Below, piece by piece: positions 10,541-55,830 of a stretch of DNA of 58,342 nucleotides. The notes under the pieces were generated by a model, which ran no database searches, had not been told where the DNA came from, and worked only from the letters and a program-made list of their open reading frames with translations. The position numbers were made by a program, and so were the translations under genes. Numbering within the stretch: the stretch's first letter is position 1; each line of letters opens with the position of its first letter. The DNA is from Streptosporangiales bacterium (GTDB lineage Bacteria > Actinomycetota > Actinomycetes > Streptosporangiales > WHST01): assembly GCA_009379955.1 (NCBI GenBank), contig WHST01000029.1, forward strand, positions 1-58,342, written 5' to 3'.

Positions 10541-10587
10541 TGCCGCACCTCGGACATCCTGCCGCCGGTCCGGCCCGCGCCCGTCCC

Positions 10588-10663
10588 TGCTGATCACGTT
10601 GACGTGATCAACGAGGACTTCACCTCGTGCAGGGACGAGGTGAAGTCCACGTTCGTGAGGTGA
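10588..10663 (+). repeat. Palindrome-plus-hairpin intergenic element, copy 1
   Basis: At 10591-10610 lies TGATCACGTTGACGTGATCA, palindromic except for its two central bases. After a 4-nt spacer come GGACTTCACCTCGT (10615-10628), loop GCAGGG, and the perfect complement (10635-10648). The tail ACGTTCGTGAGG follows. The same arrangement occurs at 24538-24626 and, inverted, at 51511-51589. Here it sits between divergent mshB and the S9 peptidase gene, so it cannot be a terminator for either. Confidence 0.85.
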
Positions 10664-10704
10664 GGCACCGCGAACGGGGTCGCGACCGTGAGAGGATCGC
10701 GCGC

Positions 10705-16925: not shown

Positions 16926-18530
16926 TCAGCCGGTCACCTCGATCTGGTCGTACTTGAGCCGACCAAGAGCGCCGTAGCTCAGCTTGCTGACCCGTTCGGA
17001 GTGGACGTCGGTGTTCTGGCCGAACCACAGCGGCGCCACGGGCAGGTCGTCGAGCACCCGATCCTCTGCCTGGTGGTAGAAGGCGATCCCGGCGCCGGGT
17101 GACGTCGCGGCGTTGCCCTTCGTCAGCAGCTCGTCGACCTTCTCGTTCGAGTACCCCGCGCCGTTCGACGAGCCGTCGGTGGCGAAGCTCGGCCCGAGGT
17201 AGTTCTCCGGGCCCGGGTAGTCCATCAGCCAGCCCCGGCGGAACGGACCGGTGACCTTGCGCTCGTCGGTGGTGACCGTGTAGGCCGCCCACGTCTGCCC
17301 CTTCAGCGAGACGGTCACCCCCAGGGTCCTGCTCAGCTGGTTGGCCACGGCCTGCACCCAGTCATCGTTGCCCGCCCCCGTGTTGTACCAGAGGGTGACG
17401 GGCGCGTCGCCGAGACCGCCCGCCTCGTCGAACAACCGCTTGGCCTTGCGCGGCTGGAACGTGCACGCCTCACCGCACGGGTCGTCGCGCTTGCCGAACC
17501 TGATCAGCGGTGTGACGAGGCCCTTCGCCGGGGTGATGGTGTCGTTGTACAGCGCCGCCGCGATCTGCTCACGGTCGATCGACATCGAGATCGCGCGGCG
17601 CACCCGCACGTCCTGGTACTCGTCGAGCCAGAGGGGGAAGCCGAGGTAGACGAAGGTGCTGCTCGGCGAACGGAGGTAGCGGTCGCCGAAGTCCTGCGGT
17701 GCGCTGAACCGGCGCTCCGGCGGCACCTCGGTGATGTCGAGATTGCCCGCGATGACGTCGTTGTACGCAGTCGCGGGGTTCGAGTAGATCTTGAACGTGA
17801 TGGTGTCCGCGCGGCCGGGCCGCCTGCCCTTGAAGTCGAGGTTCTTGGCCAGCTTGATGTACTGGTTGTGCCGCCAGGCCTCGGCCATCCGGTAGGGCCC
17901 GTTGCCGATCGGATTCTCCTTGTACTTCGCCCAGTCGCGCTCACGCAGCACCGACTCCGGCATCGGGAAGAAGGCCGTGTAGCCGATGATGAGCGGCAGG
18001 TTGGCGTTGGGTGAGTCGAGATGGATCTCGATCGTGTCGTCGTCGACGGCGTCGAGCCCGGTCATCTCGGTCTTCTTGCTCCTCGGGTGGACGTCGGCCG
18101 CGCCCTTGACCTTGAGCAGGTCGCTGAAGAAGTAGGAGTTGTTCCAGCCGTTCGCCATGGTGGCGTTCCACGCGCCCACGAACGACTGCGCGGTCACCTG
18201 TTCCCCGTTGTGGAACGTCCAGCCCTGCTTGAGCGTGATCCGCCAGTTCTTCTTGTCGGAGCTCTCCACCGAGTCGGCTACGAGGTTGACCGACCCACCC
18301 TTCTCGTCGTCGTACCCGGTCAGCCCGGCGAACAGCAGGTCGGTGACCGTGCCGCCCTCGGACTCGTTGGTGTTGCCGGGGATCAGGTCGGCGGGCTCGG
18401 TGAGCTGGGCGCTGAAGGACTTCGCGTCGGCGTCGTCGTCGGCGCCCGAGCCGCCGCCGGCGCAGCCGGGGAGCGTGAGCGCGACCGCGAGGGCGAGCGA
18501 TCCGGCGAGGAAACGGGAGCTCGCGCGCAT
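16926..18530 (-). CDS. Peptide ABC transporter substrate-binding lipoprotein (OppA/DppA type), first paralogue
   Basis: A 534-residue SBP_bac_5 protein. The ATG at 18530 has an ideal GGGAGG site and gives a lipoprotein signal peptide with lipobox LPGC. The mature part starts with a short Gly/Asp linker, then AQLTEPADLIPGNTNESEGG. Family marks include YTAFFPMPESVL, NGPYRMAEAWRHNQYIKL and the AISMSIDREQIAAALYN helix. It lies directly upstream of oppB and closely resembles the paralogues at 18771 and 25843. Ligand specificity cannot be read from sequence. Confidence 0.92.
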   Translation of the reverse strand: MRASSRFLAGSLALAVALTLPGCAGGGSGADDDADAKSFSAQLTEPADLIPGNTNESEGGTVTDLLFAGLTGYDDEKGGSVNLVADSVESSDKKNWRITLKQGWTFHNGEQVTAQSFVGAWNATMANGWNNSYFFSDLLKVKGAADVHPRSKKTEMTGLDAVDDDTIEIHLDSPNANLPLIIGYTAFFPMPESVLRERDWAKYKENPIGNGPYRMAEAWRHNQYIKLAKNLDFKGRRPGRADTITFKIYSNPATAYNDVIAGNLDITEVPPERRFSAPQDFGDRYLRSPSSTFVYLGFPLWLDEYQDVRVRRAISMSIDREQIAAALYNDTITPAKGLVTPLIRFGKRDDPCGEACTFQPRKAKRLFDEAGGLGDAPVTLWYNTGAGNDDWVQAVANQLSRTLGVTVSLKGQTWAAYTVTTDERKVTGPFRRGWLMDYPGPENYLGPSFATDGSSNGAGYSNEKVDELLTKGNAATSPGAGIAFYHQAEDRVLDDLPVAPLWFGQNTDVHSERVSKLSYGALGRLKYDQIEVTG

Positions 18531-18770: not shown

Positions 18771-20360
18771 TCAGCCGTCGCTCACCTTGATCTGGTCGAG
18801 CATGAGGCGGCCCAGCCCGTTGCGCTTCAGGTTGGACACCTTCTCCGAGTGCACGACCTTGGACGTGCCGAACCAGAGCGGCAGCACCGGCATGTCCTTG
18901 AGGACGAGGTCCTCGGCCTTCTGGTAGTACGGCACGGCCTCCTCCGGCGTCTCGGCCGCGTTGCCCTGGGCGAGCAGCTTGTCGACCTTCGGGTTGCTGT
19001 AGCCGGTGCCGTTGTTGGAGCCGTTCTTGGTGTACATCGGCCCGAGGTAGTTCTCGGCGCTCGGGTAGTCCATGATCCAGCCCATCCGGAACGGACCCCT
19101 CATCTTCTGGTCCTGCACCGCCGTCTGGTACTGGGACCACTGCTGTTGCTTCAGGGTGACCTTGATGCCGAGGTTCTTCTTCAGCTGGTTGGCCATCGCC
19201 TGGACGTACTCGTCGTGGCCGGAGCCGCTGTTGAACCAGAACTGGAGGGCGCCGTCGATGCCGCCGGCCTCCTGGAACAGCTGCTTGGCCTTCGTCGGGT
19301 TGAACGTGCAGGCCTCGCCGCACGGGTCGTCGCGGTGGCCGAGCTTGATCATCGGCGTGACCAGGCCCGTGGCCGGGACGACGGTGTCGTCGAGCAGCTG
19401 CTTGTTGATCTCGTCACGGTCGATGGCCATCGAGATCGCCTGGCGGATCCTGACGTCCTTGAACTCCTTCTGCCACAGCGGGAAGCCGTAGTAGTTGAAG
19501 CTCGTCGACGGGTCGGTGAGGAACCGGTCGCCGAAGTCCCTCTCGGCGCTGGTCAGCCGCTCCGGCGGCACGGTCGAGACGTCGAGGTTGCCCGCGACGA
19601 CGTCGTTGTACGACGTGGCGAAGTTGTCGTAGATCTTCAGGGTGATCGCGTCGGCCTTGGCCTTGGTGTCACCCGAGTAGTCGCCGTACTTCTTCAGCTT
19701 GATGGTCTGGTTGTGCTTCCACGGCTCGGCCATCTGGTACGGGCCGTTGCCGATCGGCTTCTCCTTGAAGGCCTTCCAGTCCTTGCTCTTGAGCACGGAC
19801 TCGGGCATCGGCGAGAAGGCCGAGTAGCCGAGGATCAGCGGGACGTTCGTATTCGCCGCGTCGAGAGTCATCTCGATCGTGGTGTCGCCGACGGCCTTCA
19901 GGCCGGCCATCGTCTTGGACTTCTTCGGCACGTCCGCCGCGCCCTTGATCTTGAGCAGGTCGCTGAAGAAGTACCCGTTGGCCCACGCCTCGGTCAGGAC
20001 GGCGTTCCACGCACCCACGTACGACTCCGCGGTGACCGGCTCGCCGTTCTGGAACTTCCAGCCGTCCTTGAGCTTGATGGTCCAGACCTTGCGGTCGGTG
20101 GACTCGATCGACTCGGCGTTGACCATGACGGCGTCGCCGGTCTTCGGGTCGACCCTGGTCAGCTGGTCGAAGACCGCGTCGATGACGGTGCCACCCTCGG
20201 ACTCGTTGCTGTTCCCAGGTGTCAGATCAGCCGGTTCACCGAGTTGGAAGGAGAACGACTTCTCCTTGGGTTGGTCGCCCTCGCCACCCCCGCCGCCACA
20301 GGCGGCCGCGACGAGTGCGATCGCGACCGACCCGATGAGGACACGGGTTGCAGTGCGCAT
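18771..20360 (-). CDS. Peptide ABC transporter substrate-binding lipoprotein (OppA/DppA type), second paralogue
   Basis: A 529-residue SBP_bac_5 protein from the ATG at 20360, which follows GGAGGTGTC. The signal peptide ends in lipobox AAAC before a poly-Gly linker. It shares with the 16926-18530 protein the segments GEPADLTPGNSNESEGGTV, YSAFSPMPESVLK, GNGPYQMAEPWKHNQTIKLK and CGEACTFNPTKAKQLF. It stands first in the opp gene array and has its own promoter region in the 310-bp gap shared with the sdh operon. It probably feeds the same OppBCDF channel, widening substrate range. Confidence 0.92.
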   Translation of the reverse strand: MRTATRVLIGSVAIALVAAACGGGGGEGDQPKEKSFSFQLGEPADLTPGNSNESEGGTVIDAVFDQLTRVDPKTGDAVMVNAESIESTDRKVWTIKLKDGWKFQNGEPVTAESYVGAWNAVLTEAWANGYFFSDLLKIKGAADVPKKSKTMAGLKAVGDTTIEMTLDAANTNVPLILGYSAFSPMPESVLKSKDWKAFKEKPIGNGPYQMAEPWKHNQTIKLKKYGDYSGDTKAKADAITLKIYDNFATSYNDVVAGNLDVSTVPPERLTSAERDFGDRFLTDPSTSFNYYGFPLWQKEFKDVRIRQAISMAIDRDEINKQLLDDTVVPATGLVTPMIKLGHRDDPCGEACTFNPTKAKQLFQEAGGIDGALQFWFNSGSGHDEYVQAMANQLKKNLGIKVTLKQQQWSQYQTAVQDQKMRGPFRMGWIMDYPSAENYLGPMYTKNGSNNGTGYSNPKVDKLLAQGNAAETPEEAVPYYQKAEDLVLKDMPVLPLWFGTSKVVHSEKVSNLKRNGLGRLMLDQIKVSDG

Positions 20361-24537: not shown

Positions 24538-24626
24538 CTCCCGTTGATCACGTTAACGTGATCAGCGTTGACTTCACCTCGTGCAGGGACGAGGTGAAGT
24601 CCACGTTCACGAGGTTAACGTGATCA
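24538..24626 (+). repeat. Palindrome-plus-hairpin intergenic element, copy 2 (longest)
   Basis: TGATCACGTTAACGTGATCA (24545-24564) is a perfect 20-bp palindrome. After 5 nt comes the hairpin GACTTCACCTCGT (24570-24582), loop GCAGGG, ACGAGGTGAAGTC (24589-24601). The element then closes with GTTAACGTGATCA (24614-24626), a second copy of part of the palindrome, so the whole unit is bounded by inverted repeats. It lies between convergent genes. Confidence 0.88.
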
Positions 24627-25842: not shown

Positions 25843-27435
25843 CTACCCCGTCACCGTGACGTCCCAGAGGTGGATGCCGACCAGGGCATCCTCCTTCACA
25901 TCGGACACGTGCTCGGAGTATCCCGCCTGGATCTGGCCGAAGTAGAGCGGCGCGACCGGCATGTCCTTCAGCACCTGGTCCTCGGCCCGGTTGTAGAACT
26001 CGACGCCGGCCTCGATCGACGACGCCCGGTTGCCCTGCTCGATGAGCGCGTCGACGGACTCGTGCGAGTAGCCGATCCGGTTCGACGAGCCCTTGCTCGA
26101 GTACAGTGGCTCGAGATAGTTCTGCGGCGACGGGTAGTCCATACCCCAGTCGAGCCGGTACGGGCCGGTGACGTCGTGCGCGCGCAGGACGTCGAGGTAC
26201 TGGGCCTGCACCTGCTGCTTGAACGTGATCTCCTCGATGCCGAGGTTCTTGCGCAGCTGGTTGACGATCGCCTGCATCTCCTCGTCGTAGCCCTCGTCGG
26301 TGGGCAACCAGAGCGTCATCGGACCCTTCCAGCCGCCCGCCTTCGCCAACAGCTGCTTCGCCTTGACCGGGTCGAACGTGCACCACTCGCCACACGCGCC
26401 CTTGCGGTAGCCGGGCACGATCGGCGAGATCAGCGAGTCGGCCGGGCGATAGGAGCCGTTGTAGATGCTGTCGACGATCGCCTTGCGGTCGATCGCCATC
26501 GCGATCGCATGCCGCAGGTCGGGGTTCGCGAACCGCTTGTCGTAGATGGGGAACCCGAGGTAGTGGAACGACGAGCTCGGCGCGGTGAAGAAGCGTCCGT
26601 CGAGGTCCTGCTCCGCCCTGCGGAGGCTGGACGGCGGGATCTCGTCGTAGATGTCGAGGTTGCCGGCGACGAGGTCGTTGTACGCGGTCTCCGGCTTGGT
26701 GTAGATGCGGAACTCGACCCCGCCCGCGACCGGCTCGTGAGTGCCCTTGTAGCCGGAGTACGCCTTCAGCTTGACGGTCTTGTTGTGCTGCCAGGTACCG
26801 TCCATCCGGAACGGCCCGTTGCCGATCGGCGCCCGGTCGAACTTCTCCAGGTCGTCGAAGGCCGCCTTCGGCAGCGGGTTGAACCCGGTGTACGCGAGCG
26901 TCAGCGGGAACTGGCTGAACGGTGCGTCGAGGGTGACCGTGAAGGTGAGGTCGTCGACGACCTCCAGCCCCGACATCTCCTTGACCTTCGGCTCGCCCTT
27001 CTCCGGGTTGAGGTCGGCGTAGCCCTCGATGTTGCCGAAGAAGTAGTTGTTGACCCACTCGTTCGGCGCGTACGCCGCCGCGTTCCACGCGTCGACGAAC
27101 GACTGCGACGTGACCTTCTCGCCGTTGTGGAACGTGCGGCCCGCGCGAAGCTTGACGGTCCACACGCGCTGGTCCTTCGAGGTGACCGACGACGCCGCGG
27201 TGTACGTGAGCTCGCCGTCGGACTCCAGCGAGACGAGCCCCTCGAACAGGCCGGAGATCACGGCGATGCCGTTACCCTCCTGACAGTTGCCGGGTATCAG
27301 GTGGGTCGGCTCGCCGATGCCGACCGAGAACGTGTCGTCTGCCGGTTCGTCCGCACCACCGCCGCACGCTCCGGTGAACGAGACGAGCATCACCGCCGCG
27401 GCGAGGGCGGCGACCGGTCTGCTGATTCCACGCAT
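25843..27435 (-). CDS. Peptide ABC transporter substrate-binding lipoprotein (OppA/DppA type), third paralogue
   Basis: A 530-residue SBP_bac_5 lipoprotein with signal peptide and lipobox TGAC. Marks shared with the two other OppA proteins are GEPTHLIPGN, YTGFNPLPKAAF, NGPFRMDGTWQHNKTVKLK, LRHAIAMAIDRKAIVDSIYN and CGEWCTFDPVKAKQLL. No permease or ATPase genes accompany it, so it is an orphan receptor that may use the OppBCDF channel at 12811-16783. It is followed by the Nudix-kinase fusion in the same direction. Confidence 0.92.
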   Translation of the reverse strand: MRGISRPVAALAAAVMLVSFTGACGGGADEPADDTFSVGIGEPTHLIPGNCQEGNGIAVISGLFEGLVSLESDGELTYTAASSVTSKDQRVWTVKLRAGRTFHNGEKVTSQSFVDAWNAAAYAPNEWVNNYFFGNIEGYADLNPEKGEPKVKEMSGLEVVDDLTFTVTLDAPFSQFPLTLAYTGFNPLPKAAFDDLEKFDRAPIGNGPFRMDGTWQHNKTVKLKAYSGYKGTHEPVAGGVEFRIYTKPETAYNDLVAGNLDIYDEIPPSSLRRAEQDLDGRFFTAPSSSFHYLGFPIYDKRFANPDLRHAIAMAIDRKAIVDSIYNGSYRPADSLISPIVPGYRKGACGEWCTFDPVKAKQLLAKAGGWKGPMTLWLPTDEGYDEEMQAIVNQLRKNLGIEEITFKQQVQAQYLDVLRAHDVTGPYRLDWGMDYPSPQNYLEPLYSSKGSSNRIGYSHESVDALIEQGNRASSIEAGVEFYNRAEDQVLKDMPVAPLYFGQIQAGYSEHVSDVKEDALVGIHLWDVTVTG

Positions 27436-51500: not shown

Positions 51501-51510
51501 CACGCACTCC

Positions 51511-51589
51511 ACCCAGCGAACATGGACTTCACCTCGTCCCGGCACGAGGTGAAGTCCCCGTTTGATCACGTTAACGTGATCAACGGGAG
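51511..51589 (-). repeat. Palindrome-plus-hairpin intergenic element, copy 3 (inverted)
   Basis: GGACTTCACCTCGT (51524-51537), loop CCCGGC and ACGAGGTGAAGTCC (51544-51557) form a perfect 14-bp hairpin. Five bases on lies the perfect palindrome TGATCACGTTAACGTGATCA (51563-51582). On the minus strand the order, loop (GCCGGG) and tail (ATGTTCGCTGGG) match copies 1 and 2. It separates xseB from the molybdate locus. Confidence 0.88.
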
Positions 51590-55820: not shown

Positions 55821-55830
55821 GGGCGGCGCC

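Follow-up and report, generated by a model that had tools for sequence, protein, structure and literature searches.

A dispersed repeat of two hairpins between the genes of a Streptosporangiales bacterium and a related family in its sister species

Three copies of the unit in the window

The stretch of DNA analysed here (hereafter the window; 58,342 nucleotides of contig WHST01000029.1 from a Streptosporangiales bacterium) contains three copies of a unit in which a palindrome, P, is followed by a hairpin, H, and then by a tail, T, that repeats the H 3' arm. Copy 1 (10585-10666, forward strand) lies in the divergent gap between the genes for a PIG-L (MshB-like) protein and an S9 peptidase, copy 2 (24539-24620, forward strand) in the convergent gap between those for a pterin-4a dehydratase and a NUDIX-APH protein, and copy 3 (51506-51588, reverse strand) in the tandem gap between those for the Exonuclease VII small subunit, whose stop codon adjoins the T side, and a MerR-TOBE protein. 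These contexts had been predicted from the sequence and are confirmed by Pfam and gene calls. The units are 82-83 nt each and score 97-99 bits with covariance model R1 (99.1, 97.8, and 97.4 bits, respectively). Elsewhere in the window, the genes at 16926-18530, 18771-20360, and 25843-27435 share stretches that are 63-77% alike and are probably paralogues.

In copy 1, P (10589-10612) has the centre TTGA, H (10616-10647) has a 13-bp stem and the loop GCAGGG, and T (10648-10666) repeats part of the H 3' arm (GAGGTGA). P of copy 2 (24543-24566) and of copy 3 (51561-51584, reverse strand) is centred on TTAA, with one additional A in the 3' arm of the latter. H of these copies lies at 24570-24601 (loop GCAGGG) and 51525-51556 (reverse strand, loop GCCGGG), and T, as read from the sequence, at 24602-24620 and 51506-51524 (reverse strand). 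Among the three, copy 2 alone has an extra half of P (TTAACGTGATCA, 24615-24626) at the right end of the unit. The H pattern matches all three copies with 0 mismatches, and the P pattern matches at 10591-10610 (1 mismatch), 24545-24564, and 51563-51582; within 3 mismatches, neither had any match in 100 dinucleotide-preserving shuffles of the window. The original prediction of a three-copy, two-part structure thus holds for every copy, and its three sites are right, although the unit extends slightly, by a few bases, beyond the 10588-10663 proposed for copy 1.

Structure and copy number in the source genome

The assembly of the source genome (G000) is 97.4% complete, and the interiors of insertion sequences are largely missing from it. 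In 43 identically spaced copies, the conserved unit begins some 31 nt ahead of H and ends some 18 nt beyond it, and the information content drops toward background on either side. The consensus of P is GTTGATCACGT-nn-ACGTGATCAAC, with a centre that is mostly TTAA, TCAA, or TTGA; that of H is GACTTCACCTCGT-GC(A/C)GGG-ACGAGGTGAAGTC; and that of T is CACGTTCGTGAGGTGAAG, in which GAGGTGAAG of the H 3' arm recurs. No Rfam family reached its gathering score in the window, and around copy 2 only microRNA models were matched, far below gathering (best E 1.5e-5, 34/100 bits).

In a set of 96 rows, 68 pass a P filter that allows two substitutions, while the other 28 appear by eye to be mostly cut by insertions or contig ends. 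A sequence rule splits the 68 into 44 short copies (type A) and 24 of a longer type B. TGATCA is identical in both arms of P in 68/68, and the outer pairs vary; 60 of these copies were fetched through H and 8 through P, and the filter itself favours an intact P. Such constancy could mean that P, with its two TGATCA per palindrome, serves chromosome organisation by being bound by a protein or methylated, and that H and T are accessory. However, besides the bias of the filter, two places found by the model (L211 and L212) have lost or decayed P, the sites are not conserved between species, and a second genome of the same genus (G001) has no P within 3 mismatches; we therefore regard this explanation as quite improbable.

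Model R1 was built from 44 copies of the source genome, and its figures refer to the best 150 rows. Among the matches listed, there are at least 109 distinct places (strands merged), 72 of them clear of contig ends and 37 within 200 nt of one, as far as contigs of known length are concerned; a unit split by a contig break may count twice. H within 3 mismatches has 90 forward and 94 reverse matches in this genome, which double-count each other because H is nearly self-complementary, and it was found in this genome alone of 61 searched. When 345 genomes of the order were searched for P within 3 mismatches, 16 had it, with 75 sites in the source genome and 76 in that of a sister species of the same genus (G002, 77% complete); G001 has neither P nor H at this threshold. 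The 14 further genomes have 1-3 P sites each (among those listed, a single genome has a site with 1 mismatch and all others have 2-3), which were provisionally read as chance or coding matches. A scan of genome contigs, which may omit genomes very near the source, gave one exact match to the H stem, in a Rhodobacteraceae MAG, and it was taken as chance. Exact P was absent from the viral contigs, and copy 1 from the plasmids and phages searched. The original prediction was to be given up if copies were few and neither arm was conserved in relatives; instead, copies are numerous in the source genome, and one of the two other genomes of the genus has a related family.

A related family in the sister species with retained pairing

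The repeat family of the sister species is, on comparison of the two sets of sequences, homologous to the unit described above; it is spelled differently, and the pairing is kept. Its P is mostly GTTGATCATG-TTCT-CATGATCAAC, its H part is GGCTTC(A/C)CACG...CGTG(G/T)GAAGCC, and its tail is GGTTCGTCGTGGGAAG. Of 50 P sites examined there, 42 satisfy a permissive criterion for the H part (a 9-mer with two substitutions allowed), although three of these (L230, L236, and L240) are doubtful by eye.

In an alignment of 86 rows (44 from the source genome and 42 from the sister species), 92.0% of pair cells are paired, and 280 cells are double-changed compared with 122.8 +/- 14.0 after shuffling. The covariation is 0.288 compared with 0.123 for shuffled rows (0/500 shuffles as high), and sliding the partners by 1-3 columns yields at most 53 double-changed cells. 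A smaller alignment of 57 rows, with 20/44 rows from the source genome and 37/42 from the sister species (L230, L236, L240, L246, and L258 being omitted for a poor match by eye), agrees with this result. Double changes that retain the pairing are found at P pair 14/21 (C-G to T-A), at H pairs 43/59, 44/58, and 45/57, and at outer P pairs 4/32 and 5/31. Since the three H pairs hardly vary within a species, each represents one change between the two species that recurs in many copies.

Covariation within a species is confined to some of the pairs. In the 37 rows of the sister species, outer P pair 4/31 covaries (31/37 paired, shuffled mean 15.4), as does H pair 39/59 (17/37 compared with 10.4, P = 0.0007); there was none at 14/21 (P = 0.18) or 34/65 (P = 0.23), and 44/54 does not pair (8/37). 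Within the source genome, two outer P pairs covary over 43 copies (P = 0.005 and 0.001), three other pairs tested gave P = 0.04, 0.16, and 1.0, and the 44 rows together have 19 double-changed cells compared with 7.0 +/- 2.1.

In both species, the H 5' arm is able to pair with either the H 3' arm or T. When it is paired with T, together with P, in the 57 rows, 94.2% of cells are paired and 135 are double-changed compared with 50.9 after shuffling; the pairing with T is thus retained about equally well as that with the H 3' arm, as would be expected if T copies the H 3' arm in each species. Within the sister species, evidence for separate pairing at 39/80 is weak (P = 0.07), while identity of the second and third arms at that position is found in 23/37 rows compared with 16.8 after shuffling (P = 0.01). 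GTTCG joins the arms in most of the sister-species rows of this alignment.

Signs of movement of the unit from a comparison of species

Few orthologous gaps are open to comparison. The unit is absent from those of G001, of the sister species, or of both at L001, L018 (which is copy 2 of the window), L069, L074, and L096. At the gap orthologous to copy 2, the sister species has an unrelated hairpin in place of the unit; it occurs in a single copy and was dismissed as a second repeat family. In the reverse direction, the flanks of 6/50 sister-species copies match sequence of the source genome around listed places, some on one side only. Four of the six could be assigned: two at copies of the source genome, both in opposite orientation (L242 with C37/C49, where both flanks match, and L243 with L013, where one does), and two at gaps without the unit, namely L051 (30 nt, possibly containing a remnant; both flanks match) and the gap at 55821-55830 of the window (10 nt, one flank). 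The sequence of the source genome at L051, around 886-916, is TGCCGGGACGAGGT and is possibly a decayed H. Since the sites mostly differ between the species and the orientation is opposite at two common sites, the unit appears to have moved; this is read from the comparison of species, and no excision or transposition event was seen.

Over 44 copies, no target-site duplication was detected, as no k-mer of 4 or longer was among the 25 largest excesses in the flanks. The largest excess was a 2-mer (12 compared with 6.0), among thousands of offsets tried.

The dispersal of REPs is usually attributed to RAYT transposases, a link that is also made in passages of PMC2817692 and PMC3116915 for both REPs and REPINs. 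A search for Y1_Tnp (PF01797) gave 0 matches in the source genome, at its 97.4% completeness, and was positive in 5/14 control genomes; a RAYT/Y1 transposase was accordingly set aside as the mobiliser in this genome. Passages of a 2018 survey (PMC6006769) state that the sampled Actinobacteridae carry only Y1 transposase subclass 1.1. The genes between close pairs of copies (on C11 and C84) were also considered as mobilisers and rejected, one having an AbiEi_4 match and the other no Pfam match; neither is a transposase.

Position relative to genes

Genes were called with a codon-score script, with a Pfam check on six window genes, and the background gaps were those of the fetched loci and the window, a sample of the genome. 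All 44 intact short copies of the source genome were assigned to gaps between called genes, with some of them running into the end of such a gene. Of these gaps, 30 are convergent, 12 tandem, and only 2 divergent, which makes copy 1 an exception. The excess of convergent gaps is strong (30/44 with the unit and 33/201 without; odds ratio 10.9, P = 3.5e-11). Contact with a gene 3' end is found for 42/44 copies and for 158/201 gaps without the unit (P = 0.009), only a modest excess, because such contact is common in gaps anyway. In the sister species, 16 of the 38 copies with both genes visible are convergent and 22 tandem, compared with 9/77 convergent gaps in the background (P = 5e-4); four of the 42 copies, three at contig edges and one called inside a gene, are left out of this count.

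It is possible that the unit is a functional 3'-end module under selection, in which two strong hairpins terminate or shield the transcripts that arrive from either side of a convergent gap. For the 30 convergent copies, the called stop codons on the two sides mostly lie no more than about 40 nt away, and the window copies fold as RNA at -40.6 to -45.3 kcal/mol with z of -4.6 to -6.6 on both strands. The unrelated hairpin of the sister species at the copy-2 gap points the same way, as does orientation in tandem gaps, where P lies toward the upstream stop codon in 17 copies to 5 in the sister species (P = 0.017) and in 7 to 5 in the source genome (pooled 24 to 10, P = 0.024). However, no T run follows the hairpin, either in a terminator scan around copy 1 or by eye in the aligned rows, two of the 44 copies are divergent, and G001 lacks the unit at the gaps compared; moreover, a near-identical sequence at differing sites requires dispersal in any case. 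Overall, this explanation appears rather unlikely. The view taken from the sequence at the outset, that the element is not simply a terminator, rested on the contexts of three copies and has to be qualified: with 42/44 copies at gene 3' ends and 30/44 in convergent gaps, a 3'-end effect is possible. A bidirectional effect of this kind, terminator-like or RNA-stabilising and secondary to dispersal as a mobile repeat, is plausible.

Two further regularities were seen at gene ends. At L033, L035, L071, L095, and L097 (5/44 short copies), the gene on the P side ends 9 nt into the unit, at the TGA of P, as if the insertion had provided the stop codon. In the sister species, 7 of the 17 tandem copies with P upstream have the fixed end of T exactly 24-25 nt before the next called start (for example L241, L244, L251, L255, L256, and L269), and no common sequence accounts for the spacing.

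P as a landing site for other insertions

The centre of P is a landing site of at least three other types of insertion. Three foreign ends, e1, e2, and e3, were searched jointly and gave 40 places, mostly at contig ends; in the loci examined, half of P abuts all 43 of the 43 distinct ends that match one of them. The target is TTAA at 29/29 of the e2 (16) and e3 (13) ends, while the 14 e1 ends have TTGA (11), TTAA (2), or TTCA (1). As TTAA is found in both half-sites, it would have been duplicated on insertion. The sequence behind e3 encodes the C-terminal part of a DDE_Tnp_1_4 transposase (PF13701, E 2.7e-14), which we take to be of the IS1380 family, and IS1380-type elements use TTAA-like targets. 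An OrfB-like fragment behind e2 matches rve_2 below threshold (E 0.0025, short of the curated cut-off), and a different contig has an OrfA-like start in this position with no Pfam match; that the e2 inserter belongs to IS3 is a guess. The insertion at C37/C49, whose flanks belong together by synteny with the sister species, is complex, because one flank ends in e2 and the other in e3. Upstream of H, L081, L087, and L210 have diverged variants of e1, and L081 lies beside type B sequence.

Two other candidates were discarded. IS110 is represented by three PF02371 genes, and the flanks examined have no half of P; a partial match at L132/L142 is not one. A complete IS1380-like PF13701 gene at L175 (G000:C50) has no P within 3.8 kb; by eye, it adjoins an ORF that resembles a group II intron reverse transcriptase.

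A rival reading is that the unit itself is a MITE derived from a DDE insertion sequence, such as the IS1380-family element entering TTAA. A second P lies to the right of H in 12/96 rows (half of P in 8, the whole in 4) and gives them the inverted ends TGATCACGTTAA...TTAACGTGATCA; the right end of some copies, GAGG followed by TTAACGTGATCA, resembles the IS1380-family end, CGAGG followed by TTAA, and an IS1380-family transposase fragment is present behind e3. Against this, such inverted ends are absent in the other 84 rows, no target-site duplication was found over the offsets tested, and most sister-species copies have TTCT and not TTAA in P. We consider this derivation unlikely.

Type B, which comprises 24 of the 68 intact-P copies, has longer common flanks and a second strong hairpin, CCCGTGAACGGCACCCTCACC...GGTGAGGGTGCCGTTCACGGG (for example in L003, L006, L016, and L020). 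Its ends are TTGTCAG/CTGACAA and lie 315-316 bp apart in the four copies measured in full. Type B is a MITE-like repeat of about 315 bp that has captured the P-H-T unit.

Comparison with known repeats and proposed mechanism

The unit shares with the REP, PU, and BIME repeats described in passages of PMC1525189 its many palindromic extragenic copies, its frequent location between convergent genes, and its use as a target by insertion sequences. It differs from them in length and build, since it is about 82 nt with two unlike hairpins and a repeated arm, while the REPs of that account are 21-65 nt. As in canonical REPs, no target-site duplication accompanies the unit (44 copies); however, GT[AG]G is at the foot of H in only 9/44 copies (0/44 at two neighbouring offsets), and no cognate Y1 transposase (TnpA-REP/RAYT) was detected in the source genome. 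In the sister species, GT[AG]G lies inside the H 3' arm in 27/37 rows and inside T in 18/37, and not at the 5' foot. Neither a target-site duplication nor a conserved GT[AG]G foot nor a Y1 transposase was found, so the unit is better called REP/BIME-like than a canonical RAYT-linked REP.

Like a REPIN, as outlined in part of PMC3116915, it joins two hairpin-forming parts into one dispersed extragenic unit. Unlike a REPIN, its P and H are unlike palindromes and not one REP in two orientations, no RAYT was found, and a whole second P across H is present in only 4/96 rows. As with MITEs, it is small, non-autonomous, and dispersed, but no target-site duplication was found for the short unit, and inverted ends are present in only 12/96 rows. 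Insertion at a fixed point of the palindrome recalls IS1397, IS621, ISPpu9/ISPpu10, and ISPsy8, and the REP-targeting families named in passages of PMC1525189 are IS3, IS110, IS4, IS256, and IS5; here, one of the inserters differs in having an IS1380-type transposase (PF13701) and in entering at the central TTAA. In the portion of PMC10813416 that touches on it, IS1380 serves merely as an outgroup for piggyBac. A literature search that covered titles and abstract openings, with few subscription journals, found nothing on REP families of Actinobacteria or on IS1380 elements in REPs.

Taken together, these findings make it probable that the adjacent hairpins P and H and the third arm T form a non-autonomous mobile repeat of the REP/BIME kind, about 82 nt long. 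The initial suggestion of a REP/MITE-like mobile unit thus survives in part. In its favour are the listed places (at least 109), the mostly species-specific sites, the flipped orientation at two common sites, and the retained pairing; it does not survive as a classical MITE, and two features of canonical REPs, a Y1 gene in the source genome and the GT[AG]G foot, are missing.

The identity of TGATCA, the pairing kept through double changes, the lack of target-site duplications, and the placement at gene 3' ends fit a folded substrate that is moved in trans, as REPs are. A possible scheme is that a trans-acting enzyme spreads the unit in a folded, probably single-stranded, form by reading the TGATCA-N8-TGATCA core plus the hairpins, and that copies persist where insertion harms least. 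The enzyme would be other than any Y1/RAYT transposase detectable in the source genome. More tentatively, and with somewhat less than even confidence, we propose that, in a lineage that reportedly lacks RAYTs, the two families may represent a Y1/RAYT-independent class of REP-like repeats, with a two-hairpin unit, an interchangeable third arm, a different enzyme, and a central TTAA in which insertions of the IS1380 family and of other kinds would find a safe harbour.

REP-like repeats have thus apparently spread in two sister actinobacteria, one of them without a detectable Y1 transposase, so that alternative movers may be tested in these two species. Predictions at the level of single base pairs follow from the two families, namely the TGATCA core and the three-arm pairing. 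In addition, P is a natural landing site for several types of insertion, which are thereby placed beside gene ends instead of inside genes.
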